A program made the translations under genes and the position numbers. From Bacteroidota bacterium (lineage in GTDB: Bacteria; Bacteroidota; Bacteroidia; Bacteroidales; F082), in assembly GCA_014382445.1 (NCBI GenBank), contig JACNJS010000035.1, positions 158,985 through 222,984 of the forward strand: a DNA stretch of 64,000 nucleotides, in the 5' to 3' direction. How positions within the stretch are numbered: the stretch's first letter is position 1; every line of letters starts with the position of its first letter. Shown here piece after piece: positions 41,694 to 63,232 of the stretch. Under the pieces are notes generated by a model. The model ran no database searches. It was not told the origin of the DNA and worked only from the letters and a program-made list of their open reading frames with translations.

Positions 41694-41747
41694 GGGTTTG
41701 GAGTTTGGAGTTAAAGTTTTAATTTAATAGTCAATAATCAATTAGTA

Positions 41748-41987
41748 ATGAAACATATAGATTGTAAATATTATCTTCCTGTTGATGCGTTTAAAGGATT
41801 GTGCAAAAGAGACAAAAACAATATAGCTGCCGATGATGAGTCGTGTGAACATTTCGAAAAAGCCCAAAAGTGCAAACATTGCTTTAATTTTCAGTTAACA
41901 ACGGATGATATGGGTAACTGCATGAAAAAATATGATGCCTACCCACAGTTGAATGCTCTAACCTGCACTGATTTTCATTGGAATTAA
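41748..41987 (+). CDS. hpdC: 4-hydroxyphenylacetate decarboxylase small (Fe-S) subunit
   Basis: 79 aa with His3, Cys6, Cys19, Cys33 and Cys42, Cys45, Cys58, Cys73: the His+7Cys pattern expected for two 4Fe-4S clusters in HpdC. Confidence 0.88.
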   Translation: MKHIDCKYYLPVDAFKGLCKRDKNNIAADDESCEHFEKAQKCKHCFNFQLTTDDMGNCMKKYDAYPQLNALTCTDFHWN

Positions 41988-41988
41988 G

Positions 41989-45012: not shown

Positions 45013-45092
45013 TGGAGATGACTTTTTAAACAAGTTTAAGTTCTTTCCCATCAAAAAACGTCCGTTCAATCTTTTTGTTATTTTTGGCGGAT

Positions 45093-46448
45093 ATGGAGAT
45101 TAATAATCTTAAAATAAAAGATGGTTCCAATATTGCCATTGTTGGAGGAGGTCCTTCAGGCAGTTTTTTTACATATTTTACTTTCGAACTTGCCGAACAA
45201 CTTGACCTTCATATTAATATTGACATAATTGAAGGGAAGGACTTTAATAGCTGTGGCCCATCAGGTTGCAACCAATGTGGGGGTATTGTTTCTGAATCAC
45301 TAATCCAAATGTTATCTGGTGATGGGATTATTTTACCTGCAGAAGTAATCCGGCAAGGAATTGAATCCTATACGTTTCATCTTGAGCAGGGAAATGTAGT
45401 AATTGAAGCTTCTGCTGACGAACAAAAAATCGCTTCTATGTTCAGAGGGCTTGGCCCCTTAGGATGTATCCCTGATGATCGCAAAAGTTTCGACAATCAC
45501 CTGATGGAATTATGTGCAGCGAAAGGGGCAAATATTATCCGTGACAGGGTTATTGAGATGGAAAGAAAAAAGGATGGAATAATCCTTAGGGCCAAAAATA
45601 ATTTTGAAAAAGAATATGATCTTGTTGTAGGAGCTGTTGGGCTTAACAAAACGACGTTGGAATTGTTTAGTGATCTTTGTCCGTCTTTTATACTTCCAAA
45701 AACAACCCGAACATTTATTTGTGAAATTCAAATAGATGAAAACCAGATTAATAAATATTTTGGTAATTCAATGCATGTTTTTCTTCTTAATTTACCCAAT
45801 ATCAAGTTTGGAGCATTAATACCGAAAGCCAGGTATGTTACCCTCGTATTATTAGGAGCAGATATCAACACCGAAATTGTAGCAAGTTTTCTTGAGTCGG
45901 AACCAGTTAAAAAGTGTTTTCCTCCAAACACCGATCTTAAAAGTATTATAACATGCCAGTGCTATCCTAATATTAACATTAAGGGTGCAAAATCTGCATA
46001 CGCCGACAGGGTGGTACTTATTGGTGATTCATCCACTTCAAAACTGTATAAAAATGGCATTGGAGCAGCTTATTTAACAGCTAAGGCTGCAGCTAATACT
46101 GTATTATTTCAAGGAATATCGTCGGTACACTTTAAAAAGCATTTTCAACCCACGTGTAATAAACTAGAGAAGGATAATAATATCGGCAAGTTTATTTTCA
46201 AAATTACATCTAGTGTTCAACAATCGGTAATATTGAAAAGTGCACTACTTAGGATGGTTGTTAATGAGAAACAAAAAGAAAGATATAAACGAAAAATGAG
46301 CTCCATCCTTTGGGATATATTTACGGGTAGCGCTCCATATAAAAATATTTTTGTGAGGTTTTTAAATCCGGGAACTATCTTTACATTTGTATGGAATACT
46401 ATTGGTGCAATGGCTCGGATGGTAAAGTATAATAAATATGAACTTTAA
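45093..46448 (+). CDS. FAD-dependent oxidoreductase (geranylgeranyl-reductase-like)
   Basis: NIAIVGGGPSGSFFTYFTFELAE dinucleotide fold; CGPSGCNQCGGIVSESLIQML; VVLIGDSSTSKLYKNGIGAAYLTAKAAANTV. Confidence 0.8.
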   Translation: MEINNLKIKDGSNIAIVGGGPSGSFFTYFTFELAEQLDLHINIDIIEGKDFNSCGPSGCNQCGGIVSESLIQMLSGDGIILPAEVIRQGIESYTFHLEQGNVVIEASADEQKIASMFRGLGPLGCIPDDRKSFDNHLMELCAAKGANIIRDRVIEMERKKDGIILRAKNNFEKEYDLVVGAVGLNKTTLELFSDLCPSFILPKTTRTFICEIQIDENQINKYFGNSMHVFLLNLPNIKFGALIPKARYVTLVLLGADINTEIVASFLESEPVKKCFPPNTDLKSIITCQCYPNINIKGAKSAYADRVVLIGDSSTSKLYKNGIGAAYLTAKAAANTVLFQGISSVHFKKHFQPTCNKLEKDNNIGKFIFKITSSVQQSVILKSALLRMVVNEKQKERYKRKMSSILWDIFTGSAPYKNIFVRFLNPGTIFTFVWNTIGAMARMVKYNKYEL

Positions 46449-46472
46449 ATATTATTGCATTTTTGAAGAATC

Positions 46473-47228
46473 ATGACCGGTATACCTGAGATTCATAAGG
46501 CAGAAGATAACCAGAAGCAACCCCCAACAAGGAGCAGGAATATATTAACTGATATCAAGTATTTTTTGCTGAATAAACCAACAGTACATACTCTTATTAA
46601 ATTCAACTCCGAAGAAGAAAGAAGGAACTATTGTGAAAGTATTCTGCAACGAACAGGCATTGAAGTTGATAACTTTAAAATACTCAACATTCATAGAATT
46701 GGAATTGAAGCCCCAGCTAGTTATGTGTTTGATGAACTGCTTAAATGGAATGGTGATTCTTCATGCTGGCCTAATCATATCGCTAAGGTTAACCTTCAAG
46801 ACAAAAAACTGGAAAAAATTCAAATTTTTCTATTCGGTTGTTCTCCACATATTTTCGGACTGAAAAATGGAATATTTGGATTTAAATTGATGCATTTATT
46901 TGACTTGAATGCGATTACCATCCAGCGAACACCTGCTCCATTCGATTTTGACAATGCCCGGTTTCTTCTTTACCGATGTAAGGGAGGATACCCTATTGGA
47001 GTATTTTCAATATATGTTAGAACCTCTATCCCTGAACGAGGTGAAAATGAAATGACGCAATTGTTTATGATGGTTGGATTTGATTTTTATGGTAATAAAA
47101 CTTTATCAAAAATGAAATTTATTCGTCGAATTTGGGAATCTCTTCATGATCGTGTAACTGCAAATGTAACAAGCAGGTTTAAGCAATTATGCGAGTGGCA
47201 ATTTGATAAATTTGTAGATGGTAAATAA
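46473..47228 (+). CDS. SRPBCC/START-like hypothetical protein
   Basis: APASYVFDELLKWNGDSSCWPNHIAKV, FDFDNARFLLYRCKGGYPIGVFSIYVRTSIPERGENEMTQLFMMVGFDF; co-directional with the FAD gene. Confidence 0.45.
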   Translation: MTGIPEIHKAEDNQKQPPTRSRNILTDIKYFLLNKPTVHTLIKFNSEEERRNYCESILQRTGIEVDNFKILNIHRIGIEAPASYVFDELLKWNGDSSCWPNHIAKVNLQDKKLEKIQIFLFGCSPHIFGLKNGIFGFKLMHLFDLNAITIQRTPAPFDFDNARFLLYRCKGGYPIGVFSIYVRTSIPERGENEMTQLFMMVGFDFYGNKTLSKMKFIRRIWESLHDRVTANVTSRFKQLCEWQFDKFVDGK

Positions 47229-47550: not shown

Positions 47551-47961
47551 ATGAAAATTCACACCAAAGTAAGGTATGGTTTGAGGGCAATGATTGAGAT
47601 TGCCAATAATAAATCACTAAACGGTCTTTTTCAAAAGCAAATTTCTGCAAATCAAAAAATTCCGTTAAAATATTTGGATTCAATAATCATGGGGTTAAAA
47701 AATACAGGATTAATAGTAAATTTTGCAGGTAAAAGTAGCGGGTATGTACTGTCGAAACAACCAAATGAAATTTCGGTTTATGATATTTATCGAGCATTTG
47801 AACCTGAGTTAACATTGGTGAATTGTTCATATGAAGGTACACAATGTGAGCAATTTGATATTTGCCCTTCCAAAGATTATTGGTACGAACTGAATAATGA
47901 AATAAAAAATAAAATGAAATCATCGAAGCTTCTCGAATTTATAAATGAAAACGCACAATGA
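47551..47961 (+). CDS. Rrf2-family transcriptional regulator with cysteine triad
   Basis: KIHTKVRYGLRAMIEIANN...QKIPLKYLDSIIMGLKNTGLIVNFAGKSSGYVLSK; VNCSYEGTQCEQFDICPS. Confidence 0.92.
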   Translation: MKIHTKVRYGLRAMIEIANNKSLNGLFQKQISANQKIPLKYLDSIIMGLKNTGLIVNFAGKSSGYVLSKQPNEISVYDIYRAFEPELTLVNCSYEGTQCEQFDICPSKDYWYELNNEIKNKMKSSKLLEFINENAQ

Positions 47962-48515
47962 AAGACTTTAACAACAAATTTCTAAAAATATTTTTTGTAC
48001 TATTAGTATTATTATATGGATGTAGCGAAAGCCATTTTTTTAAGCAGGACATGGTAAATGCTGAAGCATTGACAAGCTCTGATGAACAGAAGAACAATAT
48101 AGCAGTTGCTAAACCACCATTTAGTGAAGATATTTTCCCATGTTCCGAATGCCATGCTGAGCAGGAAACGAATCCTGAAAGAAGATTATTGGATATGCAT
48201 GAAGAGATTGTCGACTCTTTCCATCATGATAGTGAAAACCGTTGGTGTCTTGATTGTCATGACGCCGATAACAGGGATTTCTTGAGACTTGCAAGTGGCA
48301 GTTTATTAAAATTTGAAGAATCATATAAGCTATGCGGACAATGTCATGGTGATAAACTTCGTGATTGGAAGGTTGGAGTTCATGGTAAACGTACTGGTGA
48401 TTGGAATGGAAATAAACAATATCTACTTTGCGTACATTGCCACAATCCGCATTCGCCTAAATTTGAATCATTACAACCGTTGCCCCCTCCTGTTCGACAA
48501 GAGGATATTTATTGA
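47958..48515 (+). CDS. Tetraheme c-type cytochrome lipoprotein
   Basis: Lipobox LLYGC; CSECH, CLDCH, CGQCH, CVHCH; ATGA overlap with the Rrf2 gene. Confidence 0.88.
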   Translation: MKDFNNKFLKIFFVLLVLLYGCSESHFFKQDMVNAEALTSSDEQKNNIAVAKPPFSEDIFPCSECHAEQETNPERRLLDMHEEIVDSFHHDSENRWCLDCHDADNRDFLRLASGSLLKFEESYKLCGQCHGDKLRDWKVGVHGKRTGDWNGNKQYLLCVHCHNPHSPKFESLQPLPPPVRQEDIY

Positions 48516-48541
48516 TATATTTTTTAAAATACAGAATAATC

Positions 48542-48781
48542 ATGCAAAAAACTGATAATAGTCCGAGAAGAGATTTTTTAAAAAAGATACCTATAGCAAT
48601 TGTTTCGATTAGTGCTTTTTCTTTTTTGAATCGAAAAAAATCTAATAATCATTCTGAACTGAAATTTAATACTCTGTCGAAGGCTGAAGCGGATGAAATT
48701 ATTAATAATGATAGTTCATCTGGTTCAATGCAACTTAAACCTGCACCGGCCCCTGTTGCACAAAAAAACATAAAGGGATAA
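48542..48781 (+). CDS. 80-aa Tat-signal mini-protein, paralogous to the leader of the next gene
   Basis: MQKTDNSPRRDFLKKIPIAIVSISAF...FNTLSKAEADEIINN parallels MQKKEKNNSRRNFLKKLPVLALGTVAL...FRTLSKAEKNDIVKN. Confidence 0.7.
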   Translation: MQKTDNSPRRDFLKKIPIAIVSISAFSFLNRKKSNNHSELKFNTLSKAEADEIINNDSSSGSMQLKPAPAPVAQKNIKG

Positions 48782-48813
48782 TTTTATAAATATTGATAAC
48801 GATTTTGTAAAGT

Positions 48814-49713
48814 ATGCAGAAAAAAGAAAAAAATAATTCACGACGGAATTTCTTGAAAAAATTACCTGTTTTGGCTTTGGGAACTGTTGCATTAGCAGGT
48901 TGTAGTTCAGAAGAGTTAGATGAATTTTTTCAACAAAATTTCAGAACATTATCAAAAGCAGAAAAAAATGATATTGTAAAGAATCTTGAGAAAAAGTATT
49001 CTGAAAAATATGGTAAGGAGTTTGTAGTATCAGATAAGCCTGCTACTGAAGGAATTTTATTTGGATATGCTCTCGATTTATCCCGATGTATAGGATGCCG
49101 AAAATGTGTTTATGCTTGTGTTGAGGAAAATAATCAATCTCGTGAACCTCAGGTTCACTGGATACAGGTGCTTCGGATGGAAAATGAAAAGGGTATCGAT
49201 GTGCATTATGCCAATGTTCATTATAATCCTGATTTGGTTCCGGAAAAGGGTCATTTCTACATGCCAGTTGCTTGTCAGCAATGTAGAAATCCTCAATGTA
49301 CTACTGTTTGTCCAACTAAAGCAACCTGGCAAACCGAAGATGGAATTGTTGTAGTTGATTATAACTGGTGTATTGGTTGCCGATATTGTATGGCTGCCTG
49401 TCCTTATGGCGCCAGGCATTTTAATTGGGGTGAGCCAAATATTCCAGATGAAGAGGTTAATCCAATAACTCATTATTTAGGGAATCGGCCAAGAACTAAA
49501 GGTGTTGTCGAGAAATGCACTTTCTGCATTCAACGTGTTCGAGATGGAAAATACCCTTCTTGTGTTGAAATATGCCCTACAGGTTCACGAAAATTTGGAA
49601 ACTTGCTAGACCCTGATAGCGAAATAAGATACATATTAGAAAATAAGCGTGTTCTTGTTTTTAAAGAAGAGCTTAACACACAACCTAAATTCTATTATTT
49701 CTTCGGTGTCTAA
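48814..49713 (+). CDS. 4Fe-4S ferredoxin-type electron transfer subunit with Tat/lipobox leader
   Basis: SRRNFLKKLPVLALGTVALAGC; CIGCRKCVYACVEENN, CQQCRNPQCTTVCPTKA, CIGCRYCMAACPYGARHFNW, CTFCIQRVRDGKYPSCVEICP. Confidence 0.92.
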   Translation: MQKKEKNNSRRNFLKKLPVLALGTVALAGCSSEELDEFFQQNFRTLSKAEKNDIVKNLEKKYSEKYGKEFVVSDKPATEGILFGYALDLSRCIGCRKCVYACVEENNQSREPQVHWIQVLRMENEKGIDVHYANVHYNPDLVPEKGHFYMPVACQQCRNPQCTTVCPTKATWQTEDGIVVVDYNWCIGCRYCMAACPYGARHFNWGEPNIPDEEVNPITHYLGNRPRTKGVVEKCTFCIQRVRDGKYPSCVEICPTGSRKFGNLLDPDSEIRYILENKRVLVFKEELNTQPKFYYFFGV

Positions 49714-49749
49714 TTTTATCTTTTTTAATCATTTGATAAATTAATAATT

Positions 49750-50994
49750 ATGAGTTTTTTACGATTTATAAACGGATCATTTAAAATTATTGTCAATGGA
49801 GGAAGAGTTTATTATTCCTGTATATTTTTTCTGCTTGTATTAATTGTGTGGGGAGCACTTGGGTATTATGATCAACTGCAAGAAGGTCTGATTGTGACAA
49901 ATATGAGAGATTCTGTTTCATGGGGTTTCTATATTGGAAATTTTACTTTTTTAGTAGGGGTTGCAGCAGCTGCAGTTATGCTTGTAATTCCCGCATATAT
50001 ATACGACTGGAAACCAATTAAAGAAATTGTAATTTTTGGCGAAATATTAGCCATTTGCGCTGTTATTATGTGCATAGCTTTTATTGTGGTTGATATTGGA
50101 GAACCACTTCGTTTTTGGCATATGCTTCCTATTGTTGGAACAATGAATTTCCCATCTTCGATTTTGTCGTGGGACTTTTTTGCTCTCTTCACTTATTTTA
50201 TATTAAATTTAGTAATTGTTACACACTTATTATATAAACAATTTCATAAAAAAGAATATAACAAATCCTTCATATTGCCATTGGTATTATTAAGTATTCC
50301 AGCCGCAATAGCAATTCATACTGTAACTGCATTTCTTTTTAATGCTCTTCCTGCCCGACCTTTTTGGAATAGCGCTTTACTTGCTCCCCGGTTTTTAGCT
50401 TCTGCTTTTTGTTCGGGTCCTGCAATACTAATACTACTCTTTCAGGTTCTTCGAAAAACAACAAAATTTGAAATTAAGGATGAAGTTATTTTTACAATTG
50501 CCGAACTAATGGTTTACGCAATGTTTATCTATCTATTCTTTACGGTTTCTGAATTATTTAAAGAATTCTACTCTGATACTGAACATCTTGTTTATTGGGA
50601 ATATTTATTATTAGGAGTTGAGAAAAACAGGGAGATTGTATTTTACAGTTGGTCGTCGATTGCAATGGGCTTCACTGCATTTCTACTATTTTTAATTCCA
50701 AAAACCCGAAAAAACCTTCTCACATTAAATATTGGAGCAGTTTTAATTTATTTCAGTGTTTATATGGAAAAAGGAATAACTTTAATTATACCAGGGTTTA
50801 CTCCCGATTCACTAGGGCAGTATTTATTTTATGTTCCTTCTGATATTGAAATACGTACAGCTGTTATGATTTTCTCAGGTGGTGCATTGCTCTTTACTTT
50901 TATTTCAAAAATATCTATTGCAATTTTATTTGAGGGATTTAGTATTGATAGTTTACAAAAGAAGAGCGTTGAATCGAATACTCAAACCGTTTGA
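49750..50994 (+). CDS. NrfD/PsrC-family integral membrane quinone-interacting subunit
   Basis: RDSVSWGFYIGNFTFLVGVAAAAVMLVIPAYIYDWKPIKEIVIFGEILAICAVIMCIAFIVVDIGEPLRFWHMLP. Confidence 0.9.
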   Translation: MSFLRFINGSFKIIVNGGRVYYSCIFFLLVLIVWGALGYYDQLQEGLIVTNMRDSVSWGFYIGNFTFLVGVAAAAVMLVIPAYIYDWKPIKEIVIFGEILAICAVIMCIAFIVVDIGEPLRFWHMLPIVGTMNFPSSILSWDFFALFTYFILNLVIVTHLLYKQFHKKEYNKSFILPLVLLSIPAAIAIHTVTAFLFNALPARPFWNSALLAPRFLASAFCSGPAILILLFQVLRKTTKFEIKDEVIFTIAELMVYAMFIYLFFTVSELFKEFYSDTEHLVYWEYLLLGVEKNREIVFYSWSSIAMGFTAFLLFLIPKTRKNLLTLNIGAVLIYFSVYMEKGITLIIPGFTPDSLGQYLFYVPSDIEIRTAVMIFSGGALLFTFISKISIAILFEGFSIDSLQKKSVESNTQTV

Positions 50995-51094
50995 TTAATA
51001 AGCACACTAGATTTTTAATAAGTAATATTGTTTGTAATCATAAAATAAATATAATGATCAAAAAACAACTTAACCAACTAACATTTAAATTATT

Positions 51095-51535
51095 ATGCCA
51101 CTTCAAGTAAAACGATTATTGATAGTTTTTGTCCTATTTATTGGGATAATGTTAGGTCTTAAATATTTTCTAACTCCTGAATCATGGAGAGAATATGGAG
51201 CCTATCGCGGAAACGCTCTTACAGAAATTTCAGATAAAGAGGCCAAATATGTTCAAACTGAAACATGTGCTATGTGTCATGATTCCATCGCCGAATTAAA
51301 AACTCAAGGTGCGCATAAGTCAATTCAATGTGAAATTTGTCACGGTCCCGGATATAAGCATATTGATGATGAAAATATTGATATGAACATACCCGACGAC
51401 AATCAATTTTGTATGAGATGTCATTCAAAAAATGCTGCCAGTCCGCAAAGTATAATTAAACAAATTGATGCTGTTGAACACAGTGAAGGTGAAGAATGTA
51501 TAAATTGTCATAATCCACATCAGCCATGGCTATAA
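51095..51535 (+). CDS. Membrane-anchored tetraheme c-type cytochrome
   Basis: N-terminal TM; CAMCH, CEICH, CMRCH, CINCH. Confidence 0.88.
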   Translation: MPLQVKRLLIVFVLFIGIMLGLKYFLTPESWREYGAYRGNALTEISDKEAKYVQTETCAMCHDSIAELKTQGAHKSIQCEICHGPGYKHIDDENIDMNIPDDNQFCMRCHSKNAASPQSIIKQIDAVEHSEGEECINCHNPHQPWL

Positions 51536-52290
51536 AAAAAGAAAATTCATCAAGACGCGATTTCATAAAGAACTCCAGCATGTTTGCAGGAGGCATAGTA
51601 TTGGTTTCATTATTGAATCCATTAAAAATGGTTTATGCAACAAAAAAACCTAAAGGTAAGGGTAAGTGGTACGGAATAGGTATTGATATCGAAAAATGTA
51701 TTGGCTGTGCCAGTTGTGCAAGAGCCTGTAAAGTTGAAAACGATGTTCCTAATGAGCCATTTTTCTTTCGAAATTGGGTTGAACAATATACCATCACTAA
51801 TGACGACGAGATTAAAGTTTCATCGCCAAACGGTGGTATTGATGGCTTTAAACAGCCGGTACCTGATGATGAAATTTATAAAACATTTTTTGTACCAAAA
51901 ATGTGTAACCATTGTGCAAAATCACCTTGTACTCAGGTTTGCCCGGTAGGTGCCTCCTTCGAATCTCCCGAGGGTATTGCTTTAGTCGATAAGAGTTATT
52001 GTATAGGTTGCGGATATTGTGTTCAGTCTTGTCCTTACGGTTGTCGCTATATTGATATGGAAAATGGGGTAGTTGATAAATGTACACTTTGCTACCATCG
52101 CTTACAAAAAGGTTTGGATCCTGCATGTATGATGGCTTGCCCAACAGGAGCCAGAATATATGGTGATTTAAATGATAAAGAAAGTGCAGTGTCAGTATTT
52201 ATCAAAGAAAATAATTGTGCCGTATTAAAACCACAATTAAATACAGAGTCTAAATTATTTTATAACGATTTAAGTCAGGAGGTACACTAA
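51526..52290 (+). CDS. 4Fe-4S ferredoxin-type electron transfer subunit with Tat signal
   Basis: SRRDFIKNSSMFAGG; CIGCASCARACKVEND, CNHCAKSPCTQVCPVGA, CIGCGYCVQSCPYGCRYI, CTLCYHRLQKGLDPACMMACP. Confidence 0.92.
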   Translation: MAIKKENSSRRDFIKNSSMFAGGIVLVSLLNPLKMVYATKKPKGKGKWYGIGIDIEKCIGCASCARACKVENDVPNEPFFFRNWVEQYTITNDDEIKVSSPNGGIDGFKQPVPDDEIYKTFFVPKMCNHCAKSPCTQVCPVGASFESPEGIALVDKSYCIGCGYCVQSCPYGCRYIDMENGVVDKCTLCYHRLQKGLDPACMMACPTGARIYGDLNDKESAVSVFIKENNCAVLKPQLNTESKLFYNDLSQEVH

Positions 52291-53486
52291 TGAATAAATA
52301 TGAAACTCTATACGAAGCATTAGCCAACCTCGACGGCTATATTTATCCTAATGAAATTGCCTTAAACTGGGATTTACTAATTGTAATGTATCCCTACGTT
52401 ACCGGACTTGTTGCCGGAGCATTTATCCTTGCATCTTTAAACAGAGTATTTGATATAAAAGCATTACGACCAACGTATGAAATTTCGTTGCTAACAGCGT
52501 TATCTTTTATGTTAGTAGCCACAATGCCGTTAATTACCCATCTTGGTCAGCCCTGGCGCTTCTACGAAATGCTAGTTACACCTCATTTAACTTCTGCAAT
52601 GGCCATTTTTGGTTTTGTGTATTTATGGTATCTAATGGTAGTATTATTACTCGAAATATGGTTTGATTACAGATACGATATGGTTATATGGTCGCAACAA
52701 AAAAAAGGCTTTGTGAAGTTTGTTTATAAAGCACTTACTTTATGGGTTAGTGAAACTTCACCGGAATCGAGAAAAACAGATGAGAAAATCGGCTATTTTA
52801 TTACCGTAGTTGGTATCCCTTCAGCATTTTTACTACATGGATACGTAGGATTTATATTTGGCTCTATTAAAGCAAATCCATGGTGGTCAACCGTTATGAT
52901 GCCTGTAATTTTTATTTTCTCTGCTATGGTTTCAGGAATTGCTCTGGTAATGTTTATTTATATGGGAGTTTCCTATTTGCGTAAACAGAAACCAGATATG
53001 ATGGCATTGGATACAATTGCAAAATATTTATTTTATATACTTATAATAGATTTTACTCTGGAAAGTTTAGACCAAATCCATAGAATTTATGAAGCAGATG
53101 AATCATTTGATATTCTAAAAATACTGGTTCGCGGTAAATTATTCTTTACTTTCTTTATTATGCAAATTGGAGTTGGCGTATTAATTCCACTAACTACTTT
53201 AGGTTTTCTGCAATTTAAAAAACCTAGAGAAAGAATCAGGAAGATTATATATTTAATAATAAGCATTTGTGTGTTGGTTGGTATCTTCTATATGAGATGG
53301 AATGTTGTTATTGGAGGTCAACTTTTCTCAAAAAGTTTCTATGGGTTTACCAGCTACAAGGTTGATTTAATTGGAGGTGCGGATGTTTGGTTATCTGTGT
53401 TATGGTTTATTGTGCCATTTTTTATTTTAGCGTTTCTGTTATGGCTTCTGCCACCCTGGAAAAAAAATCATGAAGCAATGCATTGA
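52290..53486 (+). CDS. NrfD/PsrC-family integral membrane subunit
   Basis: ALNWDLLIVMYPYVTGLVAGAFILASLNRVF...MPLITHLGQPWRFYEMLVTPHLTSAMAIFGFVYLWYL; 1-nt stop/start overlap with the FeS gene (taatg). Confidence 0.88.
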   Translation: MNKYETLYEALANLDGYIYPNEIALNWDLLIVMYPYVTGLVAGAFILASLNRVFDIKALRPTYEISLLTALSFMLVATMPLITHLGQPWRFYEMLVTPHLTSAMAIFGFVYLWYLMVVLLLEIWFDYRYDMVIWSQQKKGFVKFVYKALTLWVSETSPESRKTDEKIGYFITVVGIPSAFLLHGYVGFIFGSIKANPWWSTVMMPVIFIFSAMVSGIALVMFIYMGVSYLRKQKPDMMALDTIAKYLFYILIIDFTLESLDQIHRIYEADESFDILKILVRGKLFFTFFIMQIGVGVLIPLTTLGFLQFKKPRERIRKIIYLIISICVLVGIFYMRWNVVIGGQLFSKSFYGFTSYKVDLIGGADVWLSVLWFIVPFFILAFLLWLLPPWKKNHEAMH

Positions 53487-53561
53487 TGCGATTTAATCGT
53501 AAAGCATATTGACTATAGTTGATATTTATCTTTAAATATTTGAATATATTAAAACTACGGT

Positions 53562-55202
53562 ATGGATGCAAATCATGATGAATTGAGTAATACTGAAATA
53601 TTTGACAGACTTACAGCTCTTGAATCAAGAGTTGCTAAACTTGAGACGATTCGACAAGGTTTACCGACTCAGACTTTAGATATTGATGAGCCAGAATTTT
53701 TAGATCAGTTTAAAAATATTTCAGTTGGATCTGTACTTGAGTCGAAAGTGGGCGAATACGGACTTTCCTGGCTTGGGAATATTGTCCTATTCTTTGGTAT
53801 TATTCTTATTGTTGAATATATTCAAAGTTCAGGTTACCAAATAGCATCTTCTGTTTTTGGATATATTTCTGTTGCTGGAATTTTCATTTTAGCACGTTTC
53901 CTAAAATCGATTTATCCCAAAATAGCCACCACATTTAGCTGGAATGCCTATTTACTTCTTTTTTATGTTACTCTTAGCTTACATTTTTTCACATCCACTC
54001 CGCTTATTGGCAACAAATCGTTAGGGTTATTATTAATTGCACTTGTAGCTTTTACCCAATTAGTAATCTCAATCAGAAAGAAATCACCCATATTAGTTGG
54101 TATTGCACTGGTACTTTTAAGCATTGTTGCCATCGTAAGTGATTCACCCCATTTTATGTTGTCGATTGCAATTGTAATAGCTGCTACTGCTGTTTACTGT
54201 ACTTTTATGTCAGGATGGAGTCGGTTGCTTACTTTTTCAATATTTCTGGTTTATTTGATCAATTTATTTTATTTTTTGAATAACCCTATTATGGGTCACC
54301 AGATACAGGCTATTAAAATACATAGCTATGGGTTTATTTATCTTTTTGTAATTGCGGCCATTTATTCGTTAATTTCTTTGGTTAAGAAATCAGAATCGTT
54401 AACCAATAATGGAATAGTGGGTTCAATTGTATTAAACGGAATGGGGTTTTCAATGCTACTATCGTTGTATGTAATATCTTTTTTTAAGTCAGATTATGTT
54501 AATATGATGGGCTCTATTTCTGCATTTTGTTTGCTTTATTCCGTCGTGCTGAAAATAAAATCAGATTGGAAAATAACATCATCGCTCTATGCCTTATTTG
54601 GTTTTGTAACCATGAGTGTGATGATACATGGTATTTATGATTTCCCCCTTGCCTATTTTATGCTGGCAATTCAAAGCCTTCTTGTGGTGTCGATGGCCAT
54701 TTGGTTTCGCAGTAAGTTTATTGTTGTTATGAATACTATGCTTTTTATATTCTTGTTAATTTTTTATTTGAGCACATCATCACTTATAGATGGAGTAAAT
54801 ATTTCTTTTTCGATGGTGGCATTAGTAACAGCAAGAATCTTGAATTGGAAAAAAGACAAGTTGACTATTAAAACGGATATATTAAGAAACATTTACCTGA
54901 TTATCGGGTTTATCATGGTTCTGATCACTCTTTTTTATTTAATTCCTGCCAGGTATGTTACGTTATCATGGACAGTTGCAGCCCTTCTTTACTTTATTCT
55001 AAGTTTGGTGTTAAAAAATATAAAATACCGATATTTAGCACTAGGTACAATGATAGCTGCCGCACTTTACTTATTCATTGTTGATCTTGCCCGTATTGAG
55101 TTAGCATATCGCATCATTGCATTAATGTTTCTTGCACTTATTTCCATAGGGCTGTCTATTTATTATTCAAAAAAATCAAAGCACAAAGCTGATAAAGAAT
55201 AA
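53562..55202 (+). CDS. DUF2339-like multi-pass membrane protein
   Basis: N-terminal coiled coil LTALESRVAKLE; VGEYGLSWLGNIVLFFGIILIVEYI followed by many TM segments. Confidence 0.75.
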   Translation: MDANHDELSNTEIFDRLTALESRVAKLETIRQGLPTQTLDIDEPEFLDQFKNISVGSVLESKVGEYGLSWLGNIVLFFGIILIVEYIQSSGYQIASSVFGYISVAGIFILARFLKSIYPKIATTFSWNAYLLLFYVTLSLHFFTSTPLIGNKSLGLLLIALVAFTQLVISIRKKSPILVGIALVLLSIVAIVSDSPHFMLSIAIVIAATAVYCTFMSGWSRLLTFSIFLVYLINLFYFLNNPIMGHQIQAIKIHSYGFIYLFVIAAIYSLISLVKKSESLTNNGIVGSIVLNGMGFSMLLSLYVISFFKSDYVNMMGSISAFCLLYSVVLKIKSDWKITSSLYALFGFVTMSVMIHGIYDFPLAYFMLAIQSLLVVSMAIWFRSKFIVVMNTMLFIFLLIFYLSTSSLIDGVNISFSMVALVTARILNWKKDKLTIKTDILRNIYLIIGFIMVLITLFYLIPARYVTLSWTVAALLYFILSLVLKNIKYRYLALGTMIAAALYLFIVDLARIELAYRIIALMFLALISIGLSIYYSKKSKHKADKE

Positions 55203-55256: not shown

Positions 55257-55748
55257 TTATTCAGCTGGAGGAATTGGGTGCGAAATCTGCACAAGGTATT
55301 CACTATAGTTGAACCCTTTGTAATGAGGACTTTGATCGTTATGACATTCTAAACATAATTTTTCGGTTGGCATAATCATACCCATTGCTAATGCTTTATC
55401 ACGATCCTTCATAATTGTGTTTGATTTGTAGCCACTGCCCGGTCCATGGCATGTTTCGCAAGATACACCTTCGCTTACTGTTAAGGTTGCAATTAGATCT
55501 TCGTTAACGCTTCCCGCAGTTGAGTGACATTTCAGGCATTTTGGATTATTTACTTCATCGCCTTTAAGTGATTCCATAGCTTTGGCGTGTTTTGTTTCAG
55601 CCCATTGTTTATATTGTGCACCGGTTGCTGGTTTATTATGACACATTTTACATTTAGCAGCTCCAATGTATTCAAATTCCTGAGCTGTAAGGTAATTTCC
55701 CCCTAAAAACAGAAGAAAACTAGCGATTAAAAGAGTTTTAATGTACAT
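55257..55748 (-). CDS. Tetraheme cytochrome c554-like protein
   Basis: Signal peptide; CKMCH, CLKCH, CETCHGPGSGY, CLECH. Confidence 0.9.
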   Translation of the reverse strand: MYIKTLLIASFLLFLGGNYLTAQEFEYIGAAKCKMCHNKPATGAQYKQWAETKHAKAMESLKGDEVNNPKCLKCHSTAGSVNEDLIATLTVSEGVSCETCHGPGSGYKSNTIMKDRDKALAMGMIMPTEKLCLECHNDQSPHYKGFNYSEYLVQISHPIPPAE

Positions 55749-55874
55749 GATATTGATTTTTTTGGTTATTAAATAATTTCTTTTAGTAATAATTCAATAG
55801 TATTGTCAAAAGTAATAAATTAAATAGATAATTGGATAATCATATTCTTAAATATTTTCAGCATCATTATATTT

Positions 55875-58682
55875 TTAATAAACTCCTGCAATTAATGAAT
55901 ATATAATTAGTCCCACCATAATTATGCCAAGTGATAAAAATAGGTATCCGAAAAATTTAACTATTTTAATATAAGTAGATGATATTTCCTTTTCAACAGT
56001 TACACTATCTAATCTTCCTGATTCAACCAACTCTTTATATTCTCGTGGCCTGTCTTTCATATATTCATCAAAAGGAACATGGCCGGTAAAAATAACGGTG
56101 TCCATAGGGAATGATTCTGGACGCAGATGCGTATTAAAAAAGTGAATAGTGAATATGAAACCGGTAGCTAACAATGCTTCATCACTATGAATGATTTGAG
56201 CTACGTTAATCGCCCAACCCGGAATGAAATGAGTGAAAAATTCAGGGAACCAAAGTATCAAACCCGATAAGCCAATAACGGCTACTCCCCAAAAAACAGC
56301 CATATAGTCAAATTTCTCCCAATAAGTCCATCTTCCATACTCAGGTCGTGGTCCTTTACCTAAAAACCACTTGATTGATGCTCCAAGATCCTTTATATCC
56401 TGTTTATTAAACATTAATGAATTCTTTCCGAAAAGAAAATCTTTCCCACTTAAACCTTCCTTAGCCCTTAACTGAAACAAAGTTGAAAGGTGGAATGCAA
56501 AATAGACAAATGTAACAATTGCGGCAAACCTGTGTATAGTTCCAGCAGATTTTACTCCGCCTAGCATGTGAGCAATCCATGAAGCCCATTCCATGTGAGC
56601 AAACTTTAATGTCATGCCGGTTAAAGCGAGTAATAAAAAACTCAGAATAACCATAATATGTGTAAATCTCTGGCGTTTATTGAACCTGCGGTAGTATTTG
56701 GTTTTGCCTACCGGAGTATGATGTTTATTTATTTTGCGCTGTTTTAGTGAACGTGGTAACCAAATTAAAGTGTGGAGGCCAAAGAATCCAAAAACAAATA
56801 TAAGCAATGATGTCATGCCCCAAAATGACCAAAATAAAATCGGGTTGTCGTTGTGGGTCGCATGTGTAAGGTATCCTGTAAATTCAAGGGTTACATTGTT
56901 GTGACATTTTGAGCACGTATTTACAATATTCTTATAGCCGACCATTGAATTTGGATTCTCCACTTTGAGAATCTTATGTGCTCCATGACAATCAGAACAT
57001 CTTGCAGCGTCCAAATCTCCCAACATATATGCCTTACCATGATATGTTTCTTTATATGTTCCAGAAAGTTTTTCATGGCACAATCCACATTGAACTGTGA
57101 TTTCGGTCATGAATTTATCCTTATCAATTTCACTAATCACATGTGCTGAGTGACATGTACCGCAGTTTGGATAGGTTTTACTTTCAGTATTGTTGTAGAT
57201 TGAATGGTCGCTGGCAATATAATCATCATAAATACTTTTGTGGCATTTTGCACAGGTGAGGGATATATTATTAGGATGCACCGAAGAAAGTGTATCACTT
57301 TCCTTCAATTCATGATGTGTAGTATGGCAATCAGTACAAACAGCACTTACAAGTAAACCCTTGTCAGTAAGCCCTTTCCCATGAATGCTTGTTGAGTAGT
57401 CGAGATAAGCGTTTACTTCTTTTAATCCGGCCATCTTGTTTGCATCGCCGTCTTCCTTATGGCAACTTCCACAAAGTGTTGGTATCTCTCCACGGTATGT
57501 CGGTGAGGTATCATCAAACCTGGATTTTGTTTCGTGTGTTCCATGGCAATTAGTGCAGTATGGTGCATCTTCCTCTTTTCGTAAAAAAGCCTGCCCATGA
57601 CCACTGTCAAAATATTCGTTTGAAACCTCAATATGACAATTTGAACAATCGATTTTATCAACGGTTTCACAGGGTCTTTTTAAGTTGTGGGATACGCCAG
57701 TATGACATTTGGCACACTGTATGCTCGAATGTACTGAATTGGCTAGATGAGTTAGATCGAAATGAAGCGTATCACCGGTCTGAGATAATAAATATTCGCT
57801 TTTGGAAGCATCTTTCTGATGACATCCTAAACAGGCTTGATTTGGTATAACGTCTTCAATATTTTGATATTCAACTTTATGTGGTGGGTGACAATCGGAG
57901 CATGAAGGTACAGCACCCGGAGATTTTTCCCATAATTCACTTTTAATTACCTTTTTGTGCACTTCTTCAATACGAACGTGGCACTTCATACACGTACGTG
58001 CGATCCGTTTTGGATTAACTGATGAATTTGGGCTTTCGTGTGGTAGAATTAAGTGACTGTTATGGCAGTCGTTACATGTTGCTGTAACAATTAAACCACT
58101 TTGATAAAGACCTCTACCGTGAATGCCCTGACTATAATTTTCGACAATATTGTGCTCATCGATCTTATAAATTCTGGCAACAGGCGCTCCCTCCTTATGA
58201 CAATTCCCGCATAAGATTGGGATATTCATCTTGTAGGTTTTTGAATCTGAATTCCAACGTGATAGTATATCATGTGTGCCATGACATTCTTTACAATCAG
58301 GAGCATATGGTTCGTTCAGGCTAAGGGCCTGGCCATGTATACCTGCAAAAAACTGCATTTCACTATCCTTATGGCATGTACCGCATTCAACTGGTGCTAA
58401 TTTTTTCAGTTTATCGGCATGCATATATTCGTCAGTATTTACATCCGTATGGCATTTAATGCAACTAACTTTATTGTGGACTGAATGACTTAGGACATTC
58501 GTCTTAACAAACATAGAAACAGTTTCCCCATTTTTTTCAGCAATTAGTTCAGGGTCTTCATGGCACATCATGCAGTCCTCGTCCGATTGTGCAATTACAC
58601 CATTAAAGAAAAAAAGAAGTATAATGAAATAACAAGTAGTTACATAACCAAAAAAAAACTTTTGTCTTTTATACTTTATCAT
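55875..58682 (-). CDS. 19-heme c-type cytochrome fused to C-terminal membrane cytochrome b domain
   Basis: 19 CxxCH motifs in aa ~37-595; C-terminal multi-TM domain with conserved His (RFTHIMVILSFLLLALTGMTLKF, TIHRFAAIVTFVYFAFHL, QIIHSDEALLATGFIFTIHFFNTHLRPE). Confidence 0.92.
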   Translation of the reverse strand: MIKYKRQKFFFGYVTTCYFIILLFFFNGVIAQSDEDCMMCHEDPELIAEKNGETVSMFVKTNVLSHSVHNKVSCIKCHTDVNTDEYMHADKLKKLAPVECGTCHKDSEMQFFAGIHGQALSLNEPYAPDCKECHGTHDILSRWNSDSKTYKMNIPILCGNCHKEGAPVARIYKIDEHNIVENYSQGIHGRGLYQSGLIVTATCNDCHNSHLILPHESPNSSVNPKRIARTCMKCHVRIEEVHKKVIKSELWEKSPGAVPSCSDCHPPHKVEYQNIEDVIPNQACLGCHQKDASKSEYLLSQTGDTLHFDLTHLANSVHSSIQCAKCHTGVSHNLKRPCETVDKIDCSNCHIEVSNEYFDSGHGQAFLRKEEDAPYCTNCHGTHETKSRFDDTSPTYRGEIPTLCGSCHKEDGDANKMAGLKEVNAYLDYSTSIHGKGLTDKGLLVSAVCTDCHTTHHELKESDTLSSVHPNNISLTCAKCHKSIYDDYIASDHSIYNNTESKTYPNCGTCHSAHVISEIDKDKFMTEITVQCGLCHEKLSGTYKETYHGKAYMLGDLDAARCSDCHGAHKILKVENPNSMVGYKNIVNTCSKCHNNVTLEFTGYLTHATHNDNPILFWSFWGMTSLLIFVFGFFGLHTLIWLPRSLKQRKINKHHTPVGKTKYYRRFNKRQRFTHIMVILSFLLLALTGMTLKFAHMEWASWIAHMLGGVKSAGTIHRFAAIVTFVYFAFHLSTLFQLRAKEGLSGKDFLFGKNSLMFNKQDIKDLGASIKWFLGKGPRPEYGRWTYWEKFDYMAVFWGVAVIGLSGLILWFPEFFTHFIPGWAINVAQIIHSDEALLATGFIFTIHFFNTHLRPESFPMDTVIFTGHVPFDEYMKDRPREYKELVESGRLDSVTVEKEISSTYIKIVKFFGYLFLSLGIIMVGLIIYSLIAGVY

Positions 58683-58729
58683 AATAATATTTAATCTATT
58701 AATTTGAACAAATTATCTTCTTTTTAATC

Positions 58730-59338
58730 TTAATGCCACCCATTTATCATACTCTTGAAATTTGCTAATGCTGTTTTTCCAATAGTGCAGAAGTATATAT
58801 GTACAGCCATAAAGATAGAAAGTGCAAATCCTGTTACGATGTGTATCAAATCGACAATATGTATTCCGCTTATGCCAAATAAATCTGTTGGTAATATTTC
58901 AGGGAAGAATAAAGCAGTTCCGGTAATAACGATAATTGGCATAAATACATACATTACAATTACATAGCTTATTTTTTGTAGTGGATTAAATTTTCTGTCA
59001 ATTGATATTGGATAGGGGGCATCTTCATTTTTAAATATTCCAATTGAATAATAACGTAATTGTTTTAAAACACGAACTAACATACCTGTTAAATGAAATT
59101 GGTAATAAGTTCCATTAGAGGTAAACCGGTTGCTAAACAAATAGAATATATATGCAACACACAAAGCAATGCCTGCAATGTCGTGTATTGAAATAGCCCA
59201 ATCAAAACGAATTAAAGAATAATCGTTACTTGAATATTGCAAACTCAATCCGGTAACTATAAGGGTCAGAAATAATAGGGCATTTAACAGATGCCATAAT
59301 CTAACCCAAATTGGATATAGGTAAACTTGATTTTTCAT
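58730..59338 (-). CDS. Membrane cytochrome b (b561/Ni-Fe hydrogenase b-type subunit family)
   Basis: YPIWVRLWHLLNALLFLTLIVTGLSLQY, WAISIHDIAGIALCVAYIFYLFSNRFT, HIVDLIHIVTGFALSIFMAVHIYFC. Confidence 0.85.
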   Translation of the reverse strand: MKNQVYLYPIWVRLWHLLNALLFLTLIVTGLSLQYSSNDYSLIRFDWAISIHDIAGIALCVAYIFYLFSNRFTSNGTYYQFHLTGMLVRVLKQLRYYSIGIFKNEDAPYPISIDRKFNPLQKISYVIVMYVFMPIIVITGTALFFPEILPTDLFGISGIHIVDLIHIVTGFALSIFMAVHIYFCTIGKTALANFKSMINGWH

Positions 59339-60273
59339 TTTATAAATATTCTTAAAACGGCGTGAATAAAAATAAGTAGCAACACGAACCCAAATATGAG
59401 TCCGCTCAATACGTTAAGGTAGTAGTTTCTGTTGGCACCTATGATATATGAATCATCCAATGTAGAAGCATTGAAAAAACCATATTTATTTCTTTTTTCT
59501 ATTGCTTGGAATTTATATAAAGAAGACATTAATATCGAATTTTGCGAATGGCATTCAACACATTTTCGAACTGCCTTGTCTTTGGTTTGAACTTTATGAG
59601 CTACCAAAATATTGTTGCTGGTATCTGTATGGCACTCAATACACCTTACATGGGCAAAGTGTGATATTTGATTTGGAAGCCAATCGTGTTTTTCAATAAT
59701 ATTTGGATTTTTATCTGATGAAATAAGCTGATATTTATTTATGTCGGCATGACAGCTTAAACAAATATTATTATCATAAACAATTGTTTCAAGTAAATTT
59801 TGGTTGTTACGTGCGTTTATTTTATAAGTGTGTGGATTGTGGCACATCCAACAAGTAAAATCTTGGCTATGCTTTGTAGAATGAACACTTTCCTGGAATT
59901 GCTGATCTATTTTTGCAAAATTGTAAACTTCATCATCACCTTCATGACAATCGAAACATCCGGGCATGGCTTCCATTTGCAATTCATTGTCGTGAGGGAA
60001 GGTTTTGAAACCATACGAATGACAATCAATACATTCAAACGAACTATGGTTTTGATAATAGTATAATGCAGAATCAATTATCAGATAGGGATTCATTCGA
60101 TTAGTAACATTGCGTTCCAGAATTTCATTGTAAAATGAATAAGTCGGGTTTCCATGGCAATAAAAACACTTGCTGTTTTCGGGAGAATGTTCAACGGATT
60201 CATCTGTTATTTCCTGTGCAATGAGAAATGTGCTAAATAATACTATAAGGTTTATAAATAATAATTTTTTCAT
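59335..60273 (-). CDS. Heptaheme c-type cytochrome with C-terminal TM anchor
   Basis: CFYCH, CIDCH, CFDCH, CWMCH, CLSCH, CIECH, CVECH; 4-bp overlap with downstream cytochrome b gene. Confidence 0.9.
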   Translation of the reverse strand: MKKLLFINLIVLFSTFLIAQEITDESVEHSPENSKCFYCHGNPTYSFYNEILERNVTNRMNPYLIIDSALYYYQNHSSFECIDCHSYGFKTFPHDNELQMEAMPGCFDCHEGDDEVYNFAKIDQQFQESVHSTKHSQDFTCWMCHNPHTYKINARNNQNLLETIVYDNNICLSCHADINKYQLISSDKNPNIIEKHDWLPNQISHFAHVRCIECHTDTSNNILVAHKVQTKDKAVRKCVECHSQNSILMSSLYKFQAIEKRNKYGFFNASTLDDSYIIGANRNYYLNVLSGLIFGFVLLLIFIHAVLRIFIK

Positions 60274-60344
60274 TTGATTGATCTTTACATACTTTATTGC
60301 TTAATTATCAGAATAATATAATTTTCTAATTTGGGTTTAAATAC

Positions 60345-61838
60345 TTAATACAATTCCTTATGGCATTCAAAACAAGTCATCTCTTTCCAATCGTCCATTT
60401 CAAAAGGGTGGTTGAAAACTAATGAGCTATCAGCATTGGCATATTCCATATCACCGGCAGGTCCTTGAGCTTTTATTGAATGACACACGGTGCAATCTCT
60501 TGAAATTACATGTCCATCATCGCTTATGAAGTTATCGTTATGACATCTTATACATCCTAACGTCTCAACATGACCCATATAGTTTGGATACTGACTCCAG
60601 TCGGCTTTCATAGTTGGGAAAATGTTATTCTTATAACCAGTTTGTATAGCTTCAATTGCTTTTGGAATCACCTCTGGGTTAGCAATAACAAAATCTTCAT
60701 AGTTTTCATCGTAATACTTATTTACCTTATTTGATATGTAATTCATAGCACTGTCAGTGGTAGGAAATTCTTCAACAAGAATCCCCATTATATAACTTTT
60801 AATCTCCGGAATATCTAATGATATTTCACCTGAGGCAATTGCAGCATCAATAAATATTGCTGGTGAAAGATAATCATGAGATGGTCGGTTATGACAATCT
60901 AAACAATCCATTGTCCTAGTTTCGCTAGATTGAATAGAATCAGTAATTAGATTGTTCTTAAAAACTCTTACTTTTCCGGTGCTAAGATTTGTGTATTTTA
61001 CTTCTGTTATTGAATCTCTTTTCCAATTTGAAACATAGTCAATTTTAACATCTGGATTAATATGCCAGTGGATTCCTTCTGATTGTCCTAAAGCACTATG
61101 TTCAGGACCTGTTTTCATTAGTAGTTGAATATTCCACTCAGTGTTTTCTTCATCTGATAAAAAGTGTTTTTTTGTAACGAACTTTGGATCATAAAACTTT
61201 TGTGGCCAATGGCATTTTTCACATGTTTCCTGAGCGGGCCTTAAGTTGTGTATTGGAGTTTCGATAGGCGTAGGATATGCTTTTGCAATTACAGAGTAAA
61301 CCTGATACATGCCTGAAAGTTTTGATTTTACATACCAGTTTACTCCAGTACCTACATGGCATTCAACACAACTAACACGTGCATGTGCTGAATTGTGGTA
61401 AGTAACATATTCAGGTTCCATTACTGAGTGGCATAATGTACCGCAAAATTCGTTTGATTCGGTATAATGAAAAACCTCATAACTGCCAAGGGCTGTAAAT
61501 AATAAGAAGATAGCTGTTCCGATAACAAAGATAGCAACAACCATTCGTTGGCTGGCGTCATTTAAGTTAACAATGGGAAATTTAACTTCTCGATGAACTT
61601 CTTTACTCTTGTCTCTTTTCATTTTTCTCACCGTTCCGATTGGGATCAGAATCAGGCCGATAATTAGAAAAACAGGTAGTATTATAAATGTAAATAAACC
61701 CAAATAATTTCCTACATCAGTTGGAAAAATGAATGTGATTGCTAATGTAAAAACAATCAGCAAAAAACTGACAGAAGCCAAAACAGCACCGGAAATTGTT
61801 GTCCAGCTATAAAATGATTTTGGTAGTTTCATTATCAA
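60345..61838 (-). CDS. NapC/NirT-like multiheme cytochrome c (6 CxxCH + 1 CX3CH)
   Basis: N-terminal TM; NEFCGTLCHSVMEPEYVTYHNSAHARVSCVECHVGTG; CEKCH, CLDCH, CIRCH, CTVCH, CFECH. Confidence 0.88.
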   Translation of the reverse strand: MIMKLPKSFYSWTTISGAVLASVSFLLIVFTLAITFIFPTDVGNYLGLFTFIILPVFLIIGLILIPIGTVRKMKRDKSKEVHREVKFPIVNLNDASQRMVVAIFVIGTAIFLLFTALGSYEVFHYTESNEFCGTLCHSVMEPEYVTYHNSAHARVSCVECHVGTGVNWYVKSKLSGMYQVYSVIAKAYPTPIETPIHNLRPAQETCEKCHWPQKFYDPKFVTKKHFLSDEENTEWNIQLLMKTGPEHSALGQSEGIHWHINPDVKIDYVSNWKRDSITEVKYTNLSTGKVRVFKNNLITDSIQSSETRTMDCLDCHNRPSHDYLSPAIFIDAAIASGEISLDIPEIKSYIMGILVEEFPTTDSAMNYISNKVNKYYDENYEDFVIANPEVIPKAIEAIQTGYKNNIFPTMKADWSQYPNYMGHVETLGCIRCHNDNFISDDGHVISRDCTVCHSIKAQGPAGDMEYANADSSLVFNHPFEMDDWKEMTCFECHKELY

Positions 61839-61914: not shown

Positions 61915-62826
61915 CTAAAATCCCCATAACCTTGTAATGTTGAACCCTATACGGAATTCGCCATCAGTCCAGTCGCTTTTATTCCACAAATAATTATCCT
62001 GAGGGAGAATTCCGTTTGAAGTCGTAATAAATATCTCAAAAGCATGAGTGGCAGTACCAACCTGATAGCCGATACCGAAATTTGGTAATGGACGATTTGT
62101 TACTGTAGTGTTTTCAGATATTGACTCAATTTCCAATGGTATTGAATAGTGGAAAACTAAAGATGATTGTGGTGAGAATTTTACTCTTCCCATAACCCCG
62201 ATACCTATTACATCATGGTCCATTCCTTTTACGCCGGCAATATCTGCTGGTACTGAATTATAATGTGTAAAACTTCCATTAACTGCAAATGAGAACCAAT
62301 CATTAAATTTACGACTAACAATTAATTGTGTAAAGTACGATAACCTGTTTGTAAATTTAAAAGCCGAGTCGGCAGTAGCAGTAGTAAATATCTCTTTGTT
62401 TCTGCCATCGATTGCCATATTTCCGTATAATGTAACACTAACCGGAATTGTATTTTTTCGGGTTTGTTGAAGAATGTTGTATTTAATCTGGAAATCACTA
62501 TACATGTTCTTTCTGGTGATACCATATCCCACCATCAGGTTATCAAGTATAGCATAATTTAATCCCATTCGTGTGTTGGCTGAAGGAGCATAAATTCCCC
62601 ACAAATCAGAAATACCATTGTTTTTAATTAAACCAAACCTGTGCTGAATTTGCAATTCAAGTGTTTTCTGTTCGGGAATAACCGAAGTTTGTTCGTCAAT
62701 TATTAGTCCACCGGTAAACATTTCACTTACTGGTTTGTCTTTTTTCTTTTTAGCTTCTTCATCTTGTGCTAGAATAACCCCAACACCGAAGATCATTACA
62801 AGGAAAAATATTAAATGTTTTTTCAT
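61915..62826 (-). CDS. DUF5777-like outer membrane beta-barrel protein
   Basis: Signal peptide; TLELQIQHRFGLIKNNGISDLWGIYAPSANTRMGLNYAILDNLMVGYGITRKNMYSDFQIKYNIL; ends in ...FRIGFNITRLWGF barrel terminus. Confidence 0.8.
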   Translation of the reverse strand: MKKHLIFFLVMIFGVGVILAQDEEAKKKKDKPVSEMFTGGLIIDEQTSVIPEQKTLELQIQHRFGLIKNNGISDLWGIYAPSANTRMGLNYAILDNLMVGYGITRKNMYSDFQIKYNILQQTRKNTIPVSVTLYGNMAIDGRNKEIFTTATADSAFKFTNRLSYFTQLIVSRKFNDWFSFAVNGSFTHYNSVPADIAGVKGMDHDVIGIGVMGRVKFSPQSSLVFHYSIPLEIESISENTTVTNRPLPNFGIGYQVGTATHAFEIFITTSNGILPQDNYLWNKSDWTDGEFRIGFNITRLWGF

Positions 62827-62848: not shown

Positions 62849-63232
62849 TTAATTGTTACGAGCTCCTTCTTCTATCCAATATAGTAAAAGAGTTGCCTGT
62901 GCTGCTGTGTATTTTTTGTAATGATTCCCATCAGGCAGAGGGTGAGTATATATCCTGCTTAACGGAGGATCATCTGTATTTACAAGTCCCATTCCGGTAA
63001 TGCTACTGTAAGCATTATCAGCAGTAAGATCAGGTTGAGTTCCTCCTGTGCCGTGACATCCGGTACAGTTTTGAGCAACCCAAATAGGTACAATCTCTAA
63101 AGAAAAGCTAGTTGTGTCACCTGGTGGCGGCGGCGGAATAATGGGTTCTACAAGGAATTTATACTGGCATGAGGCCACCATAATCATTATAAATGCTACC
63201 ATTACAATCCCAACAAAATGTAATTTATTCAT
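62849..63232 (-). CDS. Monoheme cytochrome c-like lipoprotein
   Basis: Lipobox IMVASC; single heme motif VAQNCTGCHGTGGTQPDLTADNAYSS. Confidence 0.85.
   Translation of the reverse strand: MNKLHFVGIVMVAFIMIMVASCQYKFLVEPIIPPPPPGDTTSFSLEIVPIWVAQNCTGCHGTGGTQPDLTADNAYSSITGMGLVNTDDPPLSRIYTHPLPDGNHYKKYTAAQATLLLYWIEEGARNN

Follow-up and report, generated by a model that had tools for sequence, protein, structure and literature searches.

Tandem of two unlike tetraheme cytochrome/Fe-S/NrfD modules in a Bacteroidales genome and in the Geobacter class

NrfD-type membrane proteins and their Fe-S partners exchange electrons with quinones. The points at which electrons pass from quinol to cytochromes set the energy yield of respiration with acceptors in the periplasm or outside the cell. 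Of the Geobacter examples, ImcH and CbcL have been genetically characterised, and Cbc4 (CbcSTU) is not well understood. In Geobacter, the annotation of CbcSTU is that of a menaquinol:ferricytochrome c oxidoreductase (PMC11434368) and that of CbcS a 4-heme cytochrome (PMC10989804). During interspecies electron transfer, cbcS, cbcT and cbcU from two sets of this type were among the genes reported to change in expression (PMC10989804). Here, we explored a window of 64 kb (the whole stretch of Bacteroidales DNA that was analysed; positions refer to it) in which two modules of this kind, M1 (47958-50994) and M2 (51095-53486), follow each other. We consider it reasonably probable that they are two distinct menaquinol:cytochrome c oxidoreductase modules that feed a multiheme, probably extracellular, electron route.

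Both modules are similar to Cbc4 in that a 4-heme cytochrome c, an Fe-S protein and an NrfD-type protein are encoded in one operon without a catalytic subunit. They differ from it in that two unlike modules stand in tandem, and the M2 NrfD-type subunit is 39-43% identical to the Geobacter-class proteins. Each module consists of a tetraheme cytochrome, a 4x[4Fe-4S] protein exported by twin-arginine translocation (Tat) and an NrfD-type membrane protein. The initial annotation had described this order as occurring twice in a row, and the open reading frames (ORFs), the Pfam and NCBIfam families and the CXXCH counts all agreed with it. The six module genes were ORFs at exactly the coordinates that it gave, and a small Tat-signal gene within M1 and an Rrf2 gene upstream had been overlooked.

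All module genes are on the plus strand. The M1 cytochrome (47958..48515) has four CXXCH motifs and a c-type cytochrome domain (Pfam/NCBIfam), and is a probable lipoprotein judging from its LLYGC motif; its orthologues, 53-75% identical, were found in Bacteroidota and the Geobacter class. It is followed by the small Tat-signal protein (48512..48781), the DsrO-like Fe-S protein (48814..49713) and the DsrP-like NrfD-type subunit (49750..50994; NrfD family, 135 bits, cut-off 25.8). The M2 cytochrome (51095..51535) also has four CXXCH motifs and a c-type cytochrome domain, and one N-terminal transmembrane (TM) segment forms its membrane anchor. Next to it are the M2 Fe-S protein (51526..52290) and the Cbc4 (CbcU)-like NrfD-type subunit (52290..53486; PF03916, 136 bits, cut-off 25.8). 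Both Fe-S proteins have a Fer4 dicluster domain, at least 16 cysteines in four cluster motifs and a Tat motif. Because the Fe-S proteins carry Tat signals and the cytochromes carry export signals, the redox subunits of both modules are predicted to face the periplasm. Searches of the PDB gave no match for the M2 NrfD-type subunit and only weak matches for the two module cytochromes.

We compared the modules with each other. M1 and M2 are only 20% identical in NrfD and 29-37% identical in the Fe-S protein, and they fall in separate clades in both the NrfD and the Fe-S trees. A recent duplication of one module is ruled out by these identities, which bears out the earlier view that these are different complexes. 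The trees were built by a quick method with support from the Shimodaira-Hasegawa-like approximate likelihood ratio test (SH-aLRT) only, and the placement of long-branch outgroups in them is uncertain. In the NrfD tree, Bacteroidota M1 grouped with Geobacter-class M1 (support 99), with the Nap-type subunits and DsrP outside, and Bacteroidota M2 grouped with Geobacter-class M2 (support 100). The Fe-S tree agreed with this. DsrOP and the Fe-S/NrfD pair encoded in flavobacterial nap operons formed the sister lineages of M1. The single operon of this type in Geobacter OR-1 and Pelotalea was in one clade with M2, and M1 grouped elsewhere. We infer that the solo Geobacter-class M2 operon is cbcSTU, by elimination and from its wide conservation rather than through the named genes of G. 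sulfurreducens. On these trees, which the initial annotation had proposed as a check, M1 is assigned to the DsrOP/Nap quinol-module lineage and M2 to the Geobacter Cbc4-like lineage. Thus, of the NrfBCD or Tmc-, Hme- or Dsr-type complexes to which it had likened them, neither module is NrfBCD, Tmc or Hme.

The M1 NrfD is 40% identical to DsrP of Chlorobia and passes the DsrP model NF045798 (388 bits, cut-off 350), and the M1 Fe-S protein is just under the cut-off of the DsrO model NF045797 (193 bits versus 200). M1 could on this account, and by its place nearest to DsrP and the Nap-type proteins in the tree, be a remnant or variant of DsrMKJOP with a role in sulfite/DsrC chemistry, but we regard this as extremely improbable. 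The DsrP model is unspecific, being passed also by Nap-operon subunits (419.6) and Geobacter-class M1 (425.9); proteins that pass it outside any Dsr context include 49750-50994, L125:10020-11246 and L238:6073-7365. Because such proteins pass too, a match is no proof of Dsr function, and automatic annotation based on NF045798 would wrongly suggest sulfite metabolism for them. Furthermore, the M1 cytochrome is tetraheme, not triheme like DsrJ, and has no above-cut-off match to the DsrJ or NrfB equivalogs of NCBIfam, while a real DsrJ control scored 119 bits. No Dsr genes stand alongside M1. DsrM and DsrK were detected in the Chlorobia controls and in none of the M1 neighbourhoods examined, and none of the CCG-domain proteins of the genome is DsrK. 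Membership of DsrMKJOP is ruled out by the 4-heme cytochrome without a DsrJ match and by the lack of DsrM and DsrK.

Beyond its orthologues, the closest homologues of M1 (43-49% identity) belong to nap operons with the order NapA-NapB-4heme-FeS-NrfD (loci L123, L124 and L125; NapA 958 bits, cut-off 904), in genomes of the same class that are probably Flavobacteriia-like. In these operons a DsrOP-related quinol module, with the same 4-heme/Fe-S/NrfD order as M1, replaces NapC or NapGH. The NapAB nitrate reductase accepts the electrons there, whereas none is present here. Since NapAB is supplied by this M1-like set as its quinol module, the M1 lineage can feed a periplasmic acceptor.

M2 passes no curated equivalog model, and the best model for its Fe-S protein is TtrB (196 bits, cut-off 416). 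NrfBCD and the SirCD of Shewanella are similar to the modules in that a quinol dehydrogenase Fe-S/NrfD pair passes electrons to c cytochromes, and M2 has the NrfD-type His and Arg. However, NrfB is pentaheme, the NrfC and NrfD models score far under cut-off (146 versus 377.6 and 71 versus 347.6 for M2), and the SirCD core is without a cytochrome (PMC11434368). NrfBCD membership is ruled out by these model scores, by the four hemes and by NrfA being elsewhere with NrfH. M2 was also found in other Bacteroidota families (53-56% identical), beside Rieske/cytochrome b and multiheme genes. In L130-L134 an 8-heme cytochrome replaces the 4-heme one, and genes for Rieske, cytochrome b and 9/11-heme proteins stand alongside; this arrangement has the appearance of a bc-type complex with a multiheme partner.

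The quinone site was examined in both NrfD-type subunits. M1 residues Y61, D115, S137, D142 and K341 align with Y52, D106, S124, D129 and K328 of DsrP from the DsrMKJOP of Chlorobia, so that M1 shares the quinone-site residues and the gate lysine of DsrP. The numbers Y52, D106, S124 and D129 are also the published ones for the quinone site of D. vulgaris DsrP1, in which the gate is Lys329 (PMC8076601). M2 residues H84, S102 and R336 align with His74, Ser92 and Arg306 of E. coli NrfD. Because quinone-site and gate residues are conserved, both proteins are likely to be active quinone-binding subunits. Ion translocation by the NrfD family is hypothesised.

We then consider the conservation of the tandem. 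The genes of relatives were read by scripted ORF calls, in which gene starts are approximate. Among 61 genomes (our own and 60 relatives), M1 was found in 9, M2 in 10 and both in 6 (Fisher's test, p = 3 × 10−4, not corrected for phylogeny). A scan of named genomes, for which the query was a chimera of the M2 NrfD segment and a Geobacter PpcA sequence, showed the M1-M2 tandem also in Geobacter argillaceus and in a Desulfuromonadaceae genome. In the class of G. argillaceus, M1 was present at ≥75% identity in 40 of the 277 genomes (hand count) and M2 in 153, more than half of them. According to a comparison of coordinates, M2 follows downstream of M1 at a distance of 2.6-3.3 kb, with no change of contig or strand, in 33 of the 40 M1-bearing genomes; it is on another contig in two, and the other five are without a tandem-type M2 at ≥74%. 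Identity to the G. argillaceus M2 is 74-100% for copies that accompany M1 and 62-73% for unpaired ones.

The tandem could consist of two independent operons that came to lie side by side by chance. Each module is also solitary in some Bacteroidota, and the order is inverted to M2-M1 in L072 and in Maribellus sediminis. However, the pair is present in two phyla, M2 is directly downstream of M1 in most M1-bearing genomes of the Geobacter class, the paired M2 copies there form a group apart from the solo ones, and the co-occurrence in relatives also argues against chance, which we consider very improbable. The gene order is far beyond chance, since it recurs in relatives and in a second phylum. 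The M1-M2 tandem is thus conserved across Bacteroidota and the Geobacter class. That metal-breathing bacteria of another phylum share the pair and its helper genes suggests a shared, little-studied outward electron route. This kind of module is already known. Its occurrence as a conserved pair of unlike modules, and the locus in Bacteroidota, seem not to have been described in the open-licence literature, in which we found no account of a tandem common to Bacteroidota and the Geobacter class.

Our genome (3.47 Mb, 97 contigs, 96% complete) encodes five NrfD proteins and two molybdopterin oxidoreductases. As the initial annotation had noted, no catalytic partner is at hand, and no molybdoenzyme is present at the M1/M2 locus. 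Both molybdoenzyme genes lie on contigs other than that of M1/M2 and are accompanied by NrfD and Fe-S genes of their own; the enzymes are PhsA-type-like but below cut-off. A further NrfD is HmcC-like. Because both enzymes have their own partners, no unpaired molybdoenzyme is left over for M1 or M2. Membership of a Psr-, Phs- or Ttr-type complex is ruled out, as the operon has no molybdoenzyme and the two in the genome are located on other contigs. The lack of a partner is not in itself odd, because molybdoenzyme-free 4-heme/Fe-S/NrfD sets (Cbc4/CbcSTU, or SirCD without the cytochrome) are already known. One or both modules might still supply a specific soluble reductase whose gene is elsewhere, such as NrfA or a multiheme cytochrome, of which there are many. 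The genome does encode NrfA (667 bits), and M1-like sets serve NapAB in other genomes. However, NrfA is paired with an NrfH of its own (170 bits, cut-off 134), each molybdoenzyme has its own NrfD, and the molybdoenzyme search of the genome returned Phs/Psr-like enzymes only and no NapA. A soluble reductase is therefore an improbable destination.

We propose the following route instead. The NrfD-type subunit of each module would bind (mena)quinol, the Tat-exported Fe-S subunit would pass the electrons across its four cubanes, and the tetraheme cytochrome would deliver them to periplasmic multiheme cytochromes rather than to a dedicated reductase. This supposes that the three subunits assemble and that quinol is oxidised; the two modules may differ in potential or in partner. 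Together with the ImcH- and CbcL-type quinol oxidases of the adjoining block, M1 and M2 could act as alternative gates from the quinol pool to the multiheme route. If so, multiheme, possibly extracellular, electron transfer is predicted in Bacteroidales, including the cultured Maribellus sediminis.

The adjoining block (55257-63232, minus strand) may extend further, since the end of the window, position 64000, is also the contig end (222984). It starts with a tetraheme cytochrome of c554 type (55257..55748; PF13435, 53 bits). Then follows a CbcL-type cytochrome (55875..58682) with 19 CXXCH motifs and, after its signal, six C-terminal TM helices (b-type); its FdnI-like domain is weak (42 bits). 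It fits the CbcL/MtoC/MtrH definition of 3-23 N-terminal CX2CH motifs and six C-terminal b-type TM helices (PMC6295460). Next are a cytochrome b561 (58730..59338; PF01292, 83 bits) and a 7-heme cytochrome c with a C-terminal anchor (59335..60273). The ImcH-type cytochrome (60345..61838) has 497 residues, three N-terminal TM helices, CGTLCH as its CX3CH motif plus six CX2CH motifs, and a NapC/NirT segment, which fits the ImcH definition (495-519 residues, three N-terminal TM helices, CX3CH plus six CX2CH; PMC6295460). Thus the published architecture is present in both proteins. They differ from the described ones in that the CbcL-type protein has 19 hemes instead of nine, and both adjoin the tandem without being members of it. 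A DUF5777 outer-membrane beta-barrel (61915..62826; PF19089, 244.6 bits) and a small lipoprotein with one CXXCH (62849..63232) complete the block.

ImcH- and CbcL-like homologues and a DUF2339-like protein recur beside the tandem, and many tandem loci of the Geobacter class are flanked by ImcH/CbcL. Elsewhere in our genome (L314:6732-8246, contig C97), an 8-heme cytochrome carries the C-terminal tail of the type IX secretion system (T9SS), and a 9-heme cytochrome with a T9SS tail is directly upstream of M1 in L074 (5317-7026). Both probably sit at the cell surface, judging from their tails. An extracellular acceptor is supported by these two cytochromes and the ImcH/CbcL neighbours. The outer-membrane candidates are the DUF5777 barrel and mono-heme protein of the block and the T9SS-tail 8-heme cytochrome. 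Several points weigh against an outward quinol-oxidising route. Some tandem loci have no ImcH and CbcL neighbours, no MtrAB-type conduit was demonstrated in this genome, and neither module strictly needs the other, as each is also found alone. NrfD/Fe-S pairs can, moreover, run either way, and Qrc reduces quinone.

The modules might run in reverse, as Qrc-like cytochrome c:menaquinone reductases that feed the quinone pool from donors in the periplasm or outside the cell, with hydrogen or formate acting through cytochromes, a syntrophic partner or Fe(II) as the donor. The quinone reductase QrcD belongs to the NrfD-type subunits (PMC8076601), Fe(II) oxidisers have CbcL-family proteins (PMC6295460), and QrcC is the second-best model for the M1 Fe-S protein (156 bits, cut-off 400). 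However, the QrcD model scored only 39 (cut-off 570), and the block also includes an ImcH-type protein, a kind reported as quinol oxidases only (PMC6295460). The reverse direction is unlikely on this evidence, although it keeps some weight. Membership of Qrc itself is ruled out by the QrcD and QrcC scores and by the absence of the hexaheme QrcA and of QrcB.

The tandem is part of nine co-directional genes (47551-55202): Rrf2, the four genes of M1, the three of M2 and a polytopic membrane protein. This last protein (53562..55202, plus strand, 546 residues) is DUF2339-like with an N-terminal coiled coil and accompanies M1, M2 or both almost without exception: nearly all of the Bacteroidales loci have a homologue no more than 200 bp from one of them. 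Its counterpart in the Geobacter class is a DUF2339 protein (55.7 bits), and the two profiles matched (96.5%, E = 1 × 10−9), with the caveat that both are many-helix membrane proteins. A structure search with its AlphaFold model (mean predicted confidence, pLDDT, 78.7) gave no PDB match at E ≤ 0.001. It may be speculated that the two modules work together as a single obligate complex with two heads, or as a coupled pair, retained as one unit in both phyla and with this protein as a third membrane part. The unlike NrfD subunits would then engage the quinone pool either at different potentials or with opposite directionality, as a quinone loop that lacks a dedicated enzyme. We regard such a complex as rather improbable.

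The Rrf2-family regulator (47551..47961, plus strand; PF02082, 97.8 bits) overlaps the M1 cytochrome gene by 4 bp, and an orthologue is immediately 5' of M1 in L068. It likely senses Fe-S or redox/nitric oxide. The small protein inside M1 has a Tat signal, no Cys and no cofactor motif, and it partly duplicates the N-terminal end of the M1 Fe-S protein encoded next to it (37% over 57 residues, E = 1 × 10−10). Its orthologues (31-59%) are present in several Bacteroidales M1 loci (L073, L074, L141, L142, L144, L148 and L152), and the M1 locus of L238 leaves no room for such a gene.

Other genes were observed nearby and elsewhere in the genome. Upstream of the Rrf2 gene, 43186-47228 encodes a 608-residue protein without a Pfam match, a geranylgeranyl-reductase-like flavoprotein and a 251-residue protein, and 39003-42912 encodes a glycyl radical enzyme with its radical-SAM activase. 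Contig C5 carries adjoining 22-heme and 20-heme cytochromes with a flavoprotein/ferredoxin gene and a family-less 535-residue protein (L315:9201-12517). On the same contig, a Rieske protein stands next to a cytochrome b that carries a fused 11-heme domain (L064:1995-5140); an HmcBC-like pair and GcvH-domain proteins are in the vicinity.

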